NCBI GenBank assembly: GCA_003426165.1
Contig: QUAH01000008.1
Span: 1-64,000, forward strand
Direction of reading: 5' to 3'
From: Candidatus Saccharicenans subterraneus
GTDB taxonomy: Bacteria > Acidobacteriota > Aminicenantia > Aminicenantales > Saccharicenantaceae
DNA length: 64,000 bases
A model generated the notes under the pieces. The model made no database searches. It worked only from the letters and a program-made list of their open reading frames with translations, and had not been told where the DNA came from. A program made the position numbers and the translations under genes. This document shows positions 16,144 through 23,150 of the stretch, piece by piece. Position 1 is the first letter of the stretch; each line of letters opens with the position of its first letter.

Positions 16144-16161
16144 GGATATGAGGAGGACATG

Positions 16162-16803
16162 ATGAAAAAAAGAACCAACCGGCTCTGGCTGACGCTGGCC
16201 ATACTGTCAACCCTGTTCCTTGGCCTGAACCTGGCCCTGCCGGCCCAGACCCAGCAGGAACGGCTCCAGACGGGTATAGCTTTTTTTGAGGCCGGCAAGA
16301 CGACCGAAGCCAAGGCCATTTTTGACCAGCTGGTGGCCGAGAACTTTGTTAATAACGACCTCTACTATTACCTCGGGTCGGCCCTGATCAAGCTGAAGAA
16401 TCCGGAGGCAGCCCTCACCCAGTTCAACAAGATTCTTCAGTCCGCCCCTAATTCTCCATATGGTTATATCGGCAAGGCCCAGTACGACATCGCCAAGGCC
16501 AACTATACCAGCGCCGAAACGCAGCTAAACACTGCCCTCCAGAAAGATCCCAACTGCGCCGAAGCTTACTACCACCGGGGACTGCTCCGGGGCTACCAGA
16601 AGAAGCTGGACCTGGCCATCGCCGACCTGCAGAAATGCCTGCAGTTGAAGGGTAACCACGCCTATGCCCACTATAATATCGGGCTGGCATATTACCAGAA
16701 AGGACGCAAGGACCTGACCATAACCCACTTCCAGAAGTTCTTGTACCTGGCTCCGGAAGCTCCAGAAGCAGCCCAGGTCAAGGCCCTGCTGAGCAGAATT
16801 TAA
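16162..16803 (+). CDS. exported tetratricopeptide-repeat protein
   Basis: A 213-residue protein. A signal peptide ('LWLTLAILSTLFLGLNLALPAQ') ends near residue 30, so it is periplasmic or outer-membrane associated. The rest is TPR helices: 'TGIAFFEAGKTTEAKAIFDQLV', 'YYYLGSALIKLKNPEAALTQF', 'AYYHRGLLRGYQKKLDLAIADL' and 'AHYNIGLAYYQKGRKDLTI' mark about five repeats. TPR proteins of this type scaffold envelope complexes. It converges with the TamB-BamA fusion gene, 7 bases apart; a BamD-like role beside a BamA-like protein is conceivable but unsupported by motifs. Two ATGs follow AGGAGG; the second has the better spacing. Confidence 0.85.
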   Translation: MKKRTNRLWLTLAILSTLFLGLNLALPAQTQQERLQTGIAFFEAGKTTEAKAIFDQLVAENFVNNDLYYYLGSALIKLKNPEAALTQFNKILQSAPNSPYGYIGKAQYDIAKANYTSAETQLNTALQKDPNCAEAYYHRGLLRGYQKKLDLAIADLQKCLQLKGNHAYAHYNIGLAYYQKGRKDLTITHFQKFLYLAPEAPEAAQVKALLSRI

Positions 16804-16810
16804 GAGCCAC

Positions 16811-19800
16811 CTAAAACGCCTGGCCGATACTAATAAAAAGAGTGCCTTTGGGTTCATCGAAACGTGGCTTCAAGTTGAACCCGTAATCTATTCTGACCAG
16901 GCCGAGCGGGCTATCTATTCTCAAACCTAAACCGGCCCCGGTCCTCAGGCGCCCGGGATTGAAATCGGACAGCCTGGAATAGACATTACCGGCGTCCAGG
17001 AACACCACTCCCCTGAAAATTTTATAAATCGGAAACCTTAATTCCTGGTTGGTAACCAGCATGGCTTCTCCGCCTTCCGGCAGGCCGGTCCAGATATCGA
17101 TCGGCCCGACGGCATCGAGCTTGAAGCCCCGGATGCTGGTGCCGCCGCCGGCAAAAAAGCGTTTGCTGGGTATCAGGATTTCGCCGAAAGCACTGGCCAG
17201 CCCCAGCCGGTAGCAGGAGGCCCAGACCACCCCCGGCAGCAGTGATTTATACATGGTGAACTGGGTAAAAGAACGAACATAATTCAGGTCGGAACCGAGG
17301 TAGCGTGGAGCATAGCTCAAGCTGCTGGTCAGAAGCGTGCCGTGTTTTGGGTCGAAGCGGTCGTCCCGGGTGTCCCGGCTGAGCAACAGCGAAAGCTCGG
17401 AGCTGGTCACCCGGATATCATAGGGAAATGGCCAGGATGGTTCTTTCTCATAATCATGGATCCGGCTCAGCCGGTAGACCCAGCTCAGGTCAAAGCCCCT
17501 GACGATCATTATCTTTTGCTGGAAGCTGGCCCCCACCTCCTCGGTTATGAACAGGTCTCTGATGTCCTTGCGATAATAGACAGAAAGAAGCGATTCCATC
17601 TTGCGGGAGAAAATATAGGGTATCCTCAGCGTGGCCCGGGCATCCTGCTGTCTCTGGTTGGCCCGGAAGTAGAGCAGGCTGTTCCAGCCACGACCGAAGA
17701 GGTTGTTGAAATCAAGCTGGGCAAATCCTTCAAATTTGGTATCGGTGTTGTACTGAAGACCGTAGGTCAGGCTGAGCCAGGGCATTTCCCGGACCTGGAC
17801 CAGGACTTTTTCCTGATGTTCCGGGGTATTTTCCGATTCTGAGGAAACATTGACCGCCTGGAAGGTGGCGGCATCATAAAGATTTTTCTGAGCCTGGGCC
17901 AGACGTTCCAGGCTGACCGGTTCCCCTGGCTTGAGGCCACTTTCCTTCAGGACGAAGGAGGCTTTGCTGCGCCTGGCTCCCTCAATATCAATTCTGGAGA
18001 TGGTATAAACCGGACCTTCTTCTATATTTATTCTGACATCATAATCAGTTCCCCCATCTACCGGCCGGGCTTCTATCTCCACCCTGGCATCCTTGAAGCC
18101 AGCGCTGCGGTAGCGGTTTAGCAGCACCGTCCGGTCCTCGTTCAGGTCAGGCCAGCTGAAGGTCTGGCCGGGTTTAAGATTGAGAATAGCCTCAAGCTCG
18201 GCTGTCTGGAACCTGGTATTTCCCTTCAATTCCAGAGAATTGACCTGGCTTTGGGGCCCGGCCTCAATCTTCAGGGTCATGTCCAGCAACCGTTTTGTTG
18301 TGTTGGCCTCTATGACCGGGGGTTCAATTTTCGGGTTCAGATAGCCGTTTTCCTGATAGTAATATTCAATGAGCTCCAGGGCTATCCTGCGGTCGTAGAT
18401 GAGGTTCCAGAGACCACGGGCTTTGGCTCCAAAATAGTCGGAAACTATGGCTTTGATCACGGACTCCTTGAAAACCGGGGCTCCGGTCAGACGGAAGCTC
18501 CCGATTTTCCATTTCCCGTTCAGCCTGGTGGAAACCTCGTAGACGGTCTGTCCTGGCTCGGGCTTTTTGACCAGTTCAACCTCTGCCTGGTAATAACCGC
18601 GCCGGTTGAGCTCGTTTAGAAGGACGGCTTTAAGTTGATAAATGTTGGCTTCTTCTGGCAATCGTCCCACCCAGGAGTTCAGGGCTTTTTTCCGGGCCCC
18701 AGTTGGGATCTTGTCTCCGGTGAATTTAAAGCTGACTGGCTGGCCGGCCTTAATATTAAGCTGTAAGGCCAGGCTGTCTTGACCGGTTTCCACCAGCCTG
18801 TCTTCTATCCTGGCATTTAAGTAGCCCCGCTTCCGGTAGAATGCTTCCAGTCGGTTTCGGGCCTGCCTGAAAGCAGCGGTCCGATAGTTGCGTCCAGACT
18901 TGAGTTTCAGGGCCCGGCTCACTTCTTCTTCGGTAAAAACGGTCTCTCCGCTTATTTCAATTCCGCTCAACCTTTTCTTGATTATTTTGTCCCGGCTCCC
19001 GGTTTCAGCCATCTGTCCGAAATTAATCCTGTGCCTGAGGGTCAGGCCGACCACCCCGTCGTCACGTCGGAATCCCCGGGTCGAAAAATTCCTTTTTAAG
19101 CGGTAGTCCAGAATCCAGGTTTGATACTGGCTGTTGGTCAGATCGATAGAGTAAGTGACGGCAAAGTCCCGGGTCATTCTTTTCCTGATGGTCAACCGGG
19201 CCCCGGGGTCCTGCAGGGTGGCGATATTGAGTGGTTCCAGAATCACATCTTCTGCCCTCAGCCATTTTTTTAAAGTCCTGGTCACGGGCGAGGCCAGCGG
19301 GCTGGAAAAATGCTGGACCAGCTGGCTGCTGATGGTATTCAGGGCTGAGCCCTGAACCTCGCGCAGGCTTTTTCCGGTCAGCAGCAACGAGGCCAGGTCT
19401 TCCTGCGACCTGGAGGGAACCGAGGTCAGCGAAAATTTCAGGTCCGAAGGGGTGCCCGACATCACCAGGCTGACCTCAATCTCTTCTTCCCCGTCATAGA
19501 CCGTGCTCTTGAGAAAGATATCCAGGTTGGGCTCGAGATTTTCCCGGCCGAGAAAGTCGACCCGCAGCCTTTCCACCGTATACTTTCGCTCGCCGATAAC
19601 CAGCTCTCCACTGTAGGCGTTTTCAGCCCGGCCGGAAAGAATGGGGGCGGGAATGGTACCCTTGAGGTTCAGGTTGGCCTTGAGTTCCAGGTCGGCCAGA
19701 TTATTCTTGACGATGATGTTCTCGACAGTCCTGATATTGATATCGAGCGGCAGGTCATAGAGAAAAGCCGGGTACTCCGTTCCCACGGGAGAAACCTTGC

Positions 19801-22800
19801 TCAGGGCCATTCTCAGTCCCTGGGTGCTCGGGTAAAAATCCTGGCGATAGCTGGCATTCAGAATGGAAAGATCACCTGACAGTGACCAGCCCCTTCTATC
19901 CTTGCTCAGCACCAGGCTGGCTCCGGACAGGCTGTTAAATCCCTGCGGATAATTGAAATCAAAATCGCGAAGGTTAAAATCAAGCCTGACCGAGGTCAGG
20001 GAAAAATTCTGGCCGAACAGGGCCCGGCCAGCGCCGGAAAAGCTTCCGGAATTGGCCTGCCCCTCCAATCTGTCCAGGACCAGCTGGGAGTTGTCAACCC
20101 TGAACCGGGCCGTGGTGTTGCTGAGGATTAGCGGCAGGTCCTGCATTCTCAGGAAAACATCATTCATCGACCCGGAACCTTCGATCAGGGGCTCCTCCAG
20201 GTCTCCCCTGACCGCAGCCTGAAGTTGTAACTTCCCTCCTACCTGCATCCCTGACAACCAGGCCCCGAAATCAGACAGGTCAAGGTCTCCGTTCAGAGAA
20301 AAGTCCAGGACCGGATTCTTCGGGTCTTTAAGTTCTGCTCCTCCCCCCAGACTGAATCTTGACCGTCCAGAGTTCAGGCTAAAACTGCTAACCTGGAGCC
20401 TTCCCTCTTTAAGCTGCACGGTCAAAGGACCATCATTTTTAATTTCGTTGCCGCCCAGTTGCAGGTTGAGGGATGGTATCTCCAGCCTGAGCTCCATGCC
20501 TTCCAGGTTTGGGGAAAAACCATTCAGCTCAACCCGGCCGTCTGCCCGGCCCCCGGGTTTGAGGCTCTGAAGCGAAGGCATCAAGACGGCCAGTCCGGCA
20601 AAGTCAAAATTTTCAAACTTAAAATCGGCTTCCAGTTTTTCCGGCCTGTTCAGGGGCACGGAAAACCTGGTGGTGGCACTCAAGGCCACCAGGGGGCTGG
20701 TTTCCTCGACTTCCGGCAGCAGCCCGGCCAGCGATGATAGCGGCAGGTCCTTCACCAGTATCAACCCGGAAAGAAGATAGGGCTCCTTTAACTCCAGCTC
20801 GGATTCCAGGTTCAGGTTAAACCTGGGCACGTTAATGGTGGCCCGGGCCAGCCGGCCGTCGGAAGTTGCCTTCAATTCAAAGTATGGAAACCAGACCCGG
20901 TCGATCATGAAACCCTGGCCCGTTATTTTCAGGTCAGCCACCGGATTTCTCCAGGGGCCACTGGCCGTCAGGCGCAGGTCCAACAGTCCGGCGTTAAGAG
21001 CCGGCAGCCAGGCCTGGAACAGACCTGCTCTTAACTTATTTCCGGTCAGCTCGGCCCCGATTTCTCCCGAGTGCGGGTTGAAACTAAGCTGGCCCTGAAG
21101 CTGTCCATCCTCTCCAAGGCGGAGGTCAATTTTCTGAAGTTTCAGTCCCGAGGGGCTGTACTCGCCCGAAACTTCCAGCTTTTCCAGATGTAGGTTACCA
21201 GCCTCGGTTCCGGTAACCGCGAGCTGAAAATTGGCCCCGGGCCGGGCGGTGGTGCCGGCCAGTATCGCCTTCCCGGACAGCAGGCCGTTCAGGTACTGTC
21301 TGCTCTCTTCATTCACCAATCCGGAAAACTGGGTTATATCCAGGTCTGATATTTCCAGCTGGCCACCGAGCTGAAAACCCATTTCCCGGGCAGCAGCCAG
21401 TTGCCGGAGAGTGCCGGTGGCTTCTATCTGACCGCGATCAAACCGGGCCAGAAGCCGGCCCAGGTTAATATTCTTAAGGCTGCCATCAGCTTTAATTTCC
21501 AGGACGGGCAGGTTGACCTGGTGGAACCCCAGGTTCTCCCCGTTAAGAACCAGGTTGAATTGCGGCCGGCTCAGCTGTCCCGAAAGTCGCAAGTTCAGGT
21601 GAACTGAACCGTTGAGGCTATCCAGGGCTGATAGCTGCTGTTCCAGGCCGGCAGCAATTTCAGGCAGACCGCTGGATTGAATGGACTGAATGACTGATTT
21701 CAGGTCATCCAGTCGCCAGCGCAACTGGCCTGATATATATTCCAGCTGTTCGAGCTTCCCGCGAAGCTCCAGCTGAGAACTCAGCAGGTTGAGATTCAGC
21801 TTATTGACGTTAAGCAACCCGGCGGCATAACTGAGATTGAGGTCCCCGGAAACTGGAACTGCCGGTCGCCTTGTTGCCATCTCTGCCCGGAAATAAGGCC
21901 TTAGCTTCAGTTCAGCCTGGCCTTCGATGGCCTCGGCTGATAATTGCGGGGCCCGCAATTCCAAACGGCCACTTATCTCGGAGGCCAGTTCCACAGGGAA
22001 ATCAGGAATAAAGGCCTGGAGCAGCCGGAGGTCAAGCTGCCGCAGGCTTGCTGAAGCCTGTAAGTCTCCCCTAAATCCGGGCGGCACTTTGCTTTCCAGA
22101 GAAATCTGGCCACCTCGGTATCCGACCTCGGCCTTCACCAGGTGAGTGGCTTCCCCGGCCGGGACGATATTGAGGGCCAGGTCGACCGGGGTCAGACCAT
22201 AAATTTTGAGCCCACCACCTGTAATCTTTCCGGTGATTTCCGGCCTGGCCGTGGTTCCGGTGATGGCCAGGTCCCAGTTCAGGTCGCCAGCATATTTATC
22301 GCCCGGCTCCAGAAGCGAAGATAGTTCCCACAGGCCAAGGTGACCTGCGGTTTTCAGATTCAGCCGTGGAGTCTCAAGATAATTTTCTAAGGCCCCGGAA
22401 ATTTCCAGCGCCGTCTGCTCAGTGGACAGGGAAAGCTTTTCCAGCTTAATCTTTTCCTGGTTGAGAGTGGTCCTGACCTCCAGCCCGGTGATTTTAGCTA
22501 TCCCCCTCCCCAGAGAGAGAGAACCGGACTGACCGGTTATAGAAGCCTGATGGAAATTGCTCGTTTCATCGAAACGGACGGAAGCCACGAGCCCGTTCAG
22601 GCTCAGCGATAACGGGGTGGCCGGCTCTTCGAAAGAAAAGGCTCCCTGCTCCAATCGGAAATTATCGATCCGAAAAGACAGGCCCGAAGACCCGCCTGCT
22701 CCTGATTCAGTGGCCGGAGTGGTTTCCCCGGTCTCCGGTCCGGCGGCCGACGATTTCAACTTTACGACCGGTTTGATTATTTCCAGGTTTTTTACCCGCA

Positions 22801-23143
22801 GTTCGCCGCCGGTAATTGTCGACCAGCCGCTCTGAAAGGTGAGTCGGTCGCAGGAAATCGATTCCACCGGGAGCTGGCTCTTTAGAGACCCGGTTAACTT
22901 TACCCCGGTGATGGTCGCTTTCAACTTGAAAATGTTCAGCCTGAAGCGATCGGCCTGCAGGGTCAGACCAGTTTTTGATTTGACCAGCTCCCCGGCCTTT
23001 TTTAAGACCAGTTTCCCGCCCCAGGGGGTCTGAAGCAGCAGACCGACCAGGACCAGAAACAGAACCAGGCCAAATAGCGTCCAGGAAACTATTCTTAATA
23101 ATTTGCCCTTTTTTCTTTTTTGCCCGTTACTTGCTTTTTCCAT
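16811..23143 (-). CDS. TamB-BamA/TamA single-chain fusion, envelope assembly protein
   Basis: A 2110-residue protein in one unbroken frame. Residues 17-40 form an N-terminal membrane anchor. Residues about 45-1000 are long AsmA/TamB-like beta-rich repeats. The TamB (DUF490) C-terminal domain lies about 1000-1390 ('GTPSDLKFSLTSVPSRSQED', 'LLLTGKSL', 'TVYDGEEEI'). From about 1395 to 1790 there are five POTRA-like units. The last ~320 residues are an Omp85 barrel with the hallmark 'GGGTSIRGF' near 2000 and a terminal 'ISIGQAF'. In E. coli TamB (inner membrane) and TamA (outer membrane) are separate partners that move lipids or barrels across the periplasm. Here one chain would span it. Five POTRAs match BamA rather than TamA. 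Start at ATG 23143; no Shine-Dalgarno. Confidence 0.93.
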   Translation of the reverse strand: MEKASNGQKRKKGKLLRIVSWTLFGLVLFLVLVGLLLQTPWGGKLVLKKAGELVKSKTGLTLQADRFRLNIFKLKATITGVKLTGSLKSQLPVESISCDRLTFQSGWSTITGGELRVKNLEIIKPVVKLKSSAAGPETGETTPATESGAGGSSGLSFRIDNFRLEQGAFSFEEPATPLSLSLNGLVASVRFDETSNFHQASITGQSGSLSLGRGIAKITGLEVRTTLNQEKIKLEKLSLSTEQTALEISGALENYLETPRLNLKTAGHLGLWELSSLLEPGDKYAGDLNWDLAITGTTARPEITGKITGGGLKIYGLTPVDLALNIVPAGEATHLVKAEVGYRGGQISLESKVPPGFRGDLQASASLRQLDLRLLQAFIPDFPVELASEISGRLELRAPQLSAEAIEGQAELKLRPYFRAEMATRRPAVPVSGDLNLSYAAGLLNVNKLNLNLLSSQLELRGKLEQLEYISGQLRWRLDDLKSVIQSIQSSGLPEIAAGLEQQLSALDSLNGSVHLNLRLSGQLSRPQFNLVLNGENLGFHQVNLPVLEIKADGSLKNINLGRLLARFDRGQIEATGTLRQLAAAREMGFQLGGQLEISDLDITQFSGLVNEESRQYLNGLLSGKAILAGTTARPGANFQLAVTGTEAGNLHLEKLEVSGEYSPSGLKLQKIDLRLGEDGQLQGQLSFNPHSGEIGAELTGNKLRAGLFQAWLPALNAGLLDLRLTASGPWRNPVADLKITGQGFMIDRVWFPYFELKATSDGRLARATINVPRFNLNLESELELKEPYLLSGLILVKDLPLSSLAGLLPEVEETSPLVALSATTRFSVPLNRPEKLEADFKFENFDFAGLAVLMPSLQSLKPGGRADGRVELNGFSPNLEGMELRLEIPSLNLQLGGNEIKNDGPLTVQLKEGRLQVSSFSLNSGRSRFSLGGGAELKDPKNPVLDFSLNGDLDLSDFGAWLSGMQVGGKLQLQAAVRGDLEEPLIEGSGSMNDVFLRMQDLPLILSNTTARFRVDNSQLVLDRLEGQANSGSFSGAGRALFGQNFSLTSVRLDFNLRDFDFNYPQGFNSLSGASLVLSKDRRGWSLSGDLSILNASYRQDFYPSTQGLRMALSKVSPVGTEYPAFLYDLPLDINIRTVENIIVKNNLADLELKANLNLKGTIPAPILSGRAENAYSGELVIGERKYTVERLRVDFLGRENLEPNLDIFLKSTVYDGEEEIEVSLVMSGTPSDLKFSLTSVPSRSQEDLASLLLTGKSLREVQGSALNTISSQLVQHFSSPLASPVTRTLKKWLRAEDVILEPLNIATLQDPGARLTIRKRMTRDFAVTYSIDLTNSQYQTWILDYRLKRNFSTRGFRRDDGVVGLTLRHRINFGQMAETGSRDKIIKKRLSGIEISGETVFTEEEVSRALKLKSGRNYRTAAFRQARNRLEAFYRKRGYLNARIEDRLVETGQDSLALQLNIKAGQPVSFKFTGDKIPTGARKKALNSWVGRLPEEANIYQLKAVLLNELNRRGYYQAEVELVKKPEPGQTVYEVSTRLNGKWKIGSFRLTGAPVFKESVIKAIVSDYFGAKARGLWNLIYDRRIALELIEYYYQENGYLNPKIEPPVIEANTTKRLLDMTLKIEAGPQSQVNSLELKGNTRFQTAELEAILNLKPGQTFSWPDLNEDRTVLLNRYRSAGFKDARVEIEARPVDGGTDYDVRINIEEGPVYTISRIDIEGARRSKASFVLKESGLKPGEPVSLERLAQAQKNLYDAATFQAVNVSSESENTPEHQEKVLVQVREMPWLSLTYGLQYNTDTKFEGFAQLDFNNLFGRGWNSLLYFRANQRQQDARATLRIPYIFSRKMESLLSVYYRKDIRDLFITEEVGASFQQKIMIVRGFDLSWVYRLSRIHDYEKEPSWPFPYDIRVTSSELSLLLSRDTRDDRFDPKHGTLLTSSLSYAPRYLGSDLNYVRSFTQFTMYKSLLPGVVWASCYRLGLASAFGEILIPSKRFFAGGGTSIRGFKLDAVGPIDIWTGLPEGGEAMLVTNQELRFPIYKIFRGVVFLDAGNVYSRLSDFNPGRLRTGAGLGLRIDSPLGLVRIDYGFNLKPRFDEPKGTLFISIGQAF

Positions 23144-23150
23144 CAACTGA

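Follow-up and report, generated by a model that had tools for sequence, protein, structure and literature searches.

We analyzed a stretch of 64,000 nucleotides from Candidatus Saccharicenans subterraneus (contig QUAH01000008.1, positions 1 to 64,000; hereafter the window), which belongs to a genome of the Aminicenantes (Acidobacteriota) of 2.9 Mb in 25 contigs with a completeness of 93%. One gene on the reverse strand encodes a TamB half and an Omp85 half that are covalently joined in a single chain (Table 1); their counterparts in E. coli are two proteins, namely TamB, a bridge anchored in the inner membrane, and a BamA-like barrel of the outer membrane. Residues are counted here from the TTG at 23146; the ATG at 23143 gives one residue fewer. 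An earlier reading of this DNA made without database searches (the sequence-only reading) had described a single uninterrupted frame of 2110 residues, which is what the ATG yields, together with a GGGTSIRGF motif and a terminal Phe, both of which are present. Its order of domains, N-terminal anchor, and count of five POTRAs likewise agree with our Pfam matches, hydropathy scan, and AlphaFold2 (AF2) models.

Table 1. Positions in the window of the fused gene, its parts, and the adjacent gene (aa, amino acids; TPR, tetratricopeptide repeat)
Feature	Positions	Strand	Basis or remark
Fused gene	16811..23146	-	Single open frame: 2110 aa from ATG at 23143, 2111 aa from TTG at 23146; stop 16811-16813
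N-terminal hydrophobic anchor, residues 15-43	23018..23104	-	Hydropathy scan; AF2 model helix 12-37
AsmA-like N-terminal region (DUF748), residues 6-239	22430..23131	-	Pfam PF05359, 57.6 bits vs cut-off 50
Predicted beta-taco: extended all-beta region, hydrophobic on one face, about residues 60-1243	19418..22969	-	AF2 models; strand amphipathy; Foldseek matches
TamB/DUF490 domain, residues 1027-1372	19031..20068	-	Pfam PF04357, E 1.1e-29; fused-only profile vs 9xdc_B
TamB C-terminal module, helices then six beta-strands, residues 1248-1376, last strand LTLRHRINF	19019..19405	-	AF2; alignment of C-termini
Linker, TamB last strand to POTRA1, residues 1377-1391	18974..19018	-	AF2; hydropathy: no signal peptide or transmembrane segment
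Five predicted POTRA domains, residues 1392-1787	17786..18973	-	Pfam; AF2; Foldseek to BamA
Predicted 16-strand Omp85 barrel, residues 1788-2111, C-terminal Phe	16814..17785	-	Pfam PF01103, E 2.3e-46; AF2 strand count
Omp85 loop-6 motif GGGTSIRGF, residues 2000-2008	17123..17149	-	Sequence; kept in two alignments of homologues
Convergent periplasmic TPR protein, neighbor of the fused gene	16159..16803	+	Conserved gene context

Alignment of about 20 independent assemblies from the genus and order showed the frame to be unbroken across the junction. Among 60 relatives, nearly all members of the genus not cut by a contig end share a frame of about 2110 to 2124 aa, which also occurs elsewhere in the order, in other genera and families. 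A fused chain of 2068 aa (L173) is encoded in G118, a genome of another family that consists of one contig (5,985,000 bases), and a contig of isolate A05DMB19 matches the C-terminal 1111 residues with 96% identity. The whole-gene ratio of nonsynonymous to synonymous substitution rates (dN/dS) is 0.15 to 0.17 against four relatives, indicating purifying selection. We considered whether an assembly join, or a missed stop or frameshift, had placed two neighboring genes in one frame, given that unfused tamB and omp85 genes adjoin in the same order in the phylum and that two relatives have frames broken at other positions. No such lesion was found near 18.9 to 19.1 kb, where the sequence-only reading had located the risk; rather, the junction is uninterrupted in the assemblies of the order, in dozens of acidobacterial genomes, and in the single 6.0-Mb contig of G118, selection on the gene is strongly purifying, and the fused Omp85 half has no signal peptide, so that an artifact is extremely improbable.

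Interrupted copies also occur. At L057 and L058, which share contigs with L083 and L080, respectively, the N-terminal 300 to 380 residues or so stand in a separate frame, through a frameshift in L057 and two in-frame stops in L058; a conserved split of this part was rejected because the lesions differ, which points to sequencing error or decay. In isolate A05DMB28 (L069) an interruption within the C-terminal half leaves a frame of 1123 aa, and the length of the match is not divisible by three.

Each half is recognized by the hidden Markov model of its own family, and all Pfam matches exceed their cut-offs (DUF748, 57.6 bits; TamB, 104.3 bits against 22.4; POTRA, E of 1.2e-40; Omp85, residues 1815 to 2111). 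The C-terminal half bears each hallmark of the Omp85 superfamily, namely the domain itself, POTRAs, the RGF motif in loop 6, the C-terminal Phe, and 16 predicted strands. The N-terminal half resembles TamB in that hydropathy finds the anchor and no other transmembrane helix, localization itself being a prediction, but the chain does not terminate in an amphipathic strand and Phe as TamB does: LTLRHRINF is kept, but linker, POTRAs, and barrel come after it. A profile built from fused chains only, with E. coli excluded, matched the solved E. coli TamB chain (9xdc_B) with an E value of 2.7e-14; it replaced an earlier PDB profile search that we set aside as circular because its profile contained E. 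coli TamB. The cut-offs of the TamB, TamA, and TamL equivalogs are far from being reached: the fused chain scores 67.6 bits against a cut-off of 825 for proteobacterial TamB (NF047952), 108.5 against 625 for TamA (NF047950), from which it also differs in having five POTRAs instead of three, and 79 against 400 for TamL (NF052279), a TamA-like barrel that is a lipoprotein, whereas the fused barrel has no N-terminus of its own to lipidate.

The BamA equivalog (NCBIfam TIGR03303) is passed narrowly by the window's chain (303.1 against 297.2 bits), and another fused chain (L061) falls below it at 257.5 bits. This score and the BamA-like number of POTRAs raise the possibility that the fused protein is chiefly an inserter of outer-membrane proteins, with the TamB half serving as tether and chaperone scaffold instead of lipid conduit; the translocation and assembly module (TAM) is reported to assemble outer-membrane proteins in vitro (PMC11341756). 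However, the genome has its own canonical BamA of 773 aa, which scores 485 bits on TIGR03303, so the fused chain is not the sole general BamA, and the hydrophobic-faced beta-taco is predicted to be retained at full length. We regard a chiefly insertase role as possible but rather unlikely, and the insertase and lipid-conduit roles are compatible, not exclusive.

An AF2 model of residues 1001 to 2111 (25 sequences; mean predicted local distance difference test score [pLDDT], 74.7; predicted template modeling score [pTM], 0.58) contains the end of the beta-taco, helices at 1248 to 1295, six strands at 1300 to 1376, the linker, five POTRAs of beta-alpha-alpha-beta-beta form, and 16 barrel strands at 1791 to 2107. 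A layout of helices followed by six strands has been reported for the C-terminal domain of E. coli TamB (PMC12800296). Foldseek searches of this model against the PDB returned BamA as the best match (E of about 1e-41 over about 800 columns) and TamA next (E of 1.5e-31). Open, substrate-bound BamA gave higher TM-scores (0.50 to 0.52) than BamA in other states; we weighed this in favor of a hybrid barrel but dropped it as confounded by POTRA angle. In the model of the N-terminal 1129 residues (pLDDT, 81.7), a transmembrane helix and an amphipathic helix are followed by near-continuous beta-strands, whose one face is 59% hydrophobic and 14% polar or charged, compared with 28% and 47% for the opposite face; strand amphipathy was 2.42 against 1.52 in shuffles, and none of 2,000 shuffles reached as high. 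The best Foldseek matches of this model were ApoB100 and LptD, which are large lipid-handling beta proteins, and TamB was also matched (9xdc_B, probability 0.94, but with an E value of just 4.7e-3). The sequence-only reading had proposed that the chain tethers both membranes and forms a continuous groove feeding the barrel. The two-membrane topology is supported, as a prediction, and the hydrophobic-faced beta-taco stands as a predicted structure, but a continuous path into the barrel goes beyond the model, in which the linker has a pLDDT below 50.

In hydropathy scans the N-terminal anchor was the sole strongly hydrophobic segment of the window's chain, and every fused protein scanned lacked one at the junction, whereas most intact unfused Omp85 proteins start with a signal-peptide-like segment. 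When TamB C-termini are aligned, the last strand of the window's chain (LTLRHRINF) falls beside those of unfused acidobacterial proteins (e.g., LDVKLRRRF) and of E. coli (LDLLYQFEF), and the linker then follows. The retention of this strand and the absence of the Omp85 signal peptide indicate that the fusion arose by loss of the TamB stop and of the Omp85 signal peptide. The stretch between the TamB match and POTRA1 measures 14 to 25 residues in most of the main fused lineage and somewhat more in a few members; raw linker figures of 74 to 98 residues partly reflect missed domain ends. A link between linker length and POTRA number was rejected: the seven-POTRA fusion L114 has about 50 residues against 14 to 25 in most five-POTRA chains, but a comparison of only three classes is an anecdote.

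Short length, poor conservation, and predicted disorder of the linker are what might be expected if a periplasmic protease cut the precursor there to release an ordinary two-protein TAM, the fusion then serving only coexpression and equal dosage. Yet no fused protein scanned has a signal peptidase site at the junction, linker length is constrained over most of the main lineage, and an operon already provides coexpression, all of which make such processing quite improbable.

The fusion is not a single oddity of this genome; both survey and trees show it to be repeated and phylum-wide. A profile of the join was run on 297 Acidobacteriota genomes with completeness of at least 85%, and the survey was confined to this phylum. 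An uninterrupted TamB-to-barrel frame was found in 61 of them (about a fifth), spread over 24 family groups, by a count of listed rows in which G038 is cut by a contig end; at least 45 fused loci were checked singly with separate TamB, POTRA, and barrel profiles. Further fusion types lie outside the 61, in three f35 genomes (L114, L167, and L168) and in f20/f73 (L094, L108, and L115). A long open frame was rejected as sufficient evidence of fusion, since G298:C32, G320, G109, G132, and G281 hold separate tamB and omp85 genes (L099, L103, L169, L170, and L192). In 19 genomes, 14 of which are at least 90% complete, PF04357 detects no TamB besides the fused gene, which implies that there the fused chain must do the entire TamB job. 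Only the unfused pair was seen in sister genus g4 and several other Aminicenantes, indicating that the fused copy can be lost or was never gained. A short-pattern scan of all GTDB contigs gave matches only in Aminicenantes/Acidobacteriota but missed known acidobacterial fusions and so is no evidence of absence elsewhere, and the viral contigs scanned gave no match.

Some genomes hold more than one version. Two different fused chains occur in each of G245 (L095 and L096), G323 (L101 and L119), and G241 (L154 and L155), and G220 has two fused chains (L110 and L164) together with one unfused pair (L146).

Separate copies also coexist with the fused gene in the window's genome, which retains an unfused pair consisting of tamB (1131 aa), a 4-nucleotide gap, and a 905-aa Omp85 (L009, 12074-5957), along with the canonical BamA (L010) and three more members of the Omp85 family. 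Unfused pairs in the phylum mostly run from tamB to omp85, adjacent or overlapping, in the order of the fused chain and opposite to that of E. coli tamA-tamB, and the tamB-omp85 operon of the window's genome is the obvious precursor arrangement. The TamB-domain tree and the Omp85-half tree both place the main fused group apart from the unfused operon lineage, within which two further fused groups, f35 (with seven POTRAs) and f20/f73, are nested with starred support in each tree. At least four changes between the fused and unfused states are needed on the trees, three of them forced by starred branches. These topologies fit best with one old fusion and two later ones, the main group possibly being split by one more change; the fusion has apparently arisen in at least three independent events, although because the root was placed by midpoint only, one fission may stand in place of one fusion. 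Such recurrence makes covalent coupling of the two membranes look like a repeated, functional solution. The sequence-only reading had called the fusion a natural proof that the two proteins work as one machine, which overstates the case: a fusion argues strongly for functional coupling but does not prove it, and cryo-electron microscopy had already demonstrated the coupling of TamA and TamB (PMC12800296, 2026). The phylum also contains a distant pair in the reverse order, omp85 before tamB (L120, L132, and L133), which lies well away from the others in the trees.

In TAM, phospholipid lies in the groove of TamB, the C-terminal strands of TamB enter the partner barrel, where the last of them pairs with TamA strand 1 in a hybrid barrel in E. 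coli, and the POTRAs hold TamB (PMC12800296). With TAM and Borrelia work as the guide, every TAM part is present in one chain, which makes a single-chain TAM the most likely role. We therefore consider it probable that the fused protein would act as a translocation and assembly module that bridges both membranes and handles lipid and/or protein cargo. Its N-terminal helix would anchor the chain in the inner membrane, and the predicted beta-taco would form a hydrophobic groove across the periplasm; the terminal six-strand module of TamB would lead through the short linker to the five POTRAs and the BamA-type barrel in the outer membrane. Phospholipid may be moved outward along the groove, outer-membrane protein folding may be helped at the barrel, or both, and the covalent join would fix a 1:1 stoichiometry and keep the TamB exit at its own barrel. 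The intact frame, domain order, and single anchor are observed and the folds are predicted, while location in both membranes, cargo, and direction are what we infer. Several points weigh against this proposal, namely that cargo is not readable from sequence, that the linker is modeled with low confidence, and that pTM values of only 0.58 and 0.51 make the relative placement of domains unreliable.

The linker also constrains how such a chain could work, since it limits the distance from POTRA1 to the last TamB strand (an estimated 50 Å or so for 15 residues); either the POTRA arm would fold back, or a hybrid barrel would form between two chains, or there would be none. Since POTRA1, the unit most distant from the membrane, follows that strand after just 14 to 25 residues or so, we also entertained the idea that the TamB strands sit in or near the gate of their own barrel by way of a folded-back POTRA arm, giving a permanently self-engaged hybrid barrel that would be a dedicated lipid bridge without protein insertion, or else that the linker forbids a hybrid barrel in cis and TAM then works without it; this we judge unlikely.

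Several known systems come close to the fused chain. TamA-TamB of Proteobacteria shares the TamB anchor, beta-taco, and two-helix/six-strand C-terminal module and an Omp85 partner with POTRAs, but here TamB and then Omp85 form one chain, and the barrel is nearer to BamA than to TamA by NCBIfam score. Heinz et al. 2015 (PMC4494059) described in Acidobacteria a TamB with a second, seven-POTRA BamA encoded by adjacent tamB and omp85 genes, a system paralogous to the fused gene and also found in the window's genome (L009). It is the probable precursor of the fusion but is unfused, and its Omp85 has its own signal peptide, which the five-POTRA main fused lineage lacks. In Borrelia burgdorferi, TamB works with a five-POTRA BamA-type Omp85, its DUF490 domain binding POTRA2 and POTRA3 and its C-terminus predicted to complete the BamA barrel (PMC11361582, PMC13382580); there, however, the two are separate proteins and the Omp85 is the cell's only BamA, whereas here canonical BamA is a separate gene. 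The MlaD of Veillonella parvula with a C-terminal beta-barrel is likewise one polypeptide from inner-membrane helix to outer-membrane barrel, with a proposed role in phospholipid transport, but it is unrelated, combining an MCE/alpha-helical tunnel with a small 10-strand barrel and having no TamB, POTRA, or Omp85 (PMC10665443).

We found no description of a TamB-Omp85 fusion among 5.39 million open-access papers, a search that did not extend to subscription papers or database architecture pages; the main texts of Heinz and Lithgow 2014 and Heinz et al. 2015 (PMC4494059) do not mention one, and it is not among the ten subfamilies listed in the Omp85 catalogue of 2014 (PMC4104836). What appears to be new is the joining in one chain, how widely it occurs, and that it arose repeatedly; the parts themselves are already known. 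The fusion corrects the catalogue of Omp85 architectures and marks Acidobacteriota as a phylum in which single-chain bridges from inner to outer membrane are common. Repeated natural joining, with a short linker directly behind the very strand that inserts into the E. coli barrel, touches two current questions: do TamB and its Omp85 partner operate as one machine, and is entry of the TamB C-terminal strands into the barrel part of the working cycle (PMC12800296, 2026; PMC13382580, 2026)? For structure determination the fused chain offers a construct of defined 1:1 stoichiometry, and its built-in length limit tests the hybrid-barrel model.

The fused gene has a recurrent neighbor, the convergent gene for a periplasmic TPR protein of about 200 to 220 aa with a signal-peptide-like start, which lies 3 to 143 bp from the stop of the fused gene in several family groups. 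The same arrangement occurs at L044-L059 (L058 included), L062, L152, L155, L157, L159, L162, L163, and L164. That the two genes stay together in distant genomes is a hint of functional partnership or of an old arrangement, and from this gene context the TPR protein is a possible partner of the fused protein.

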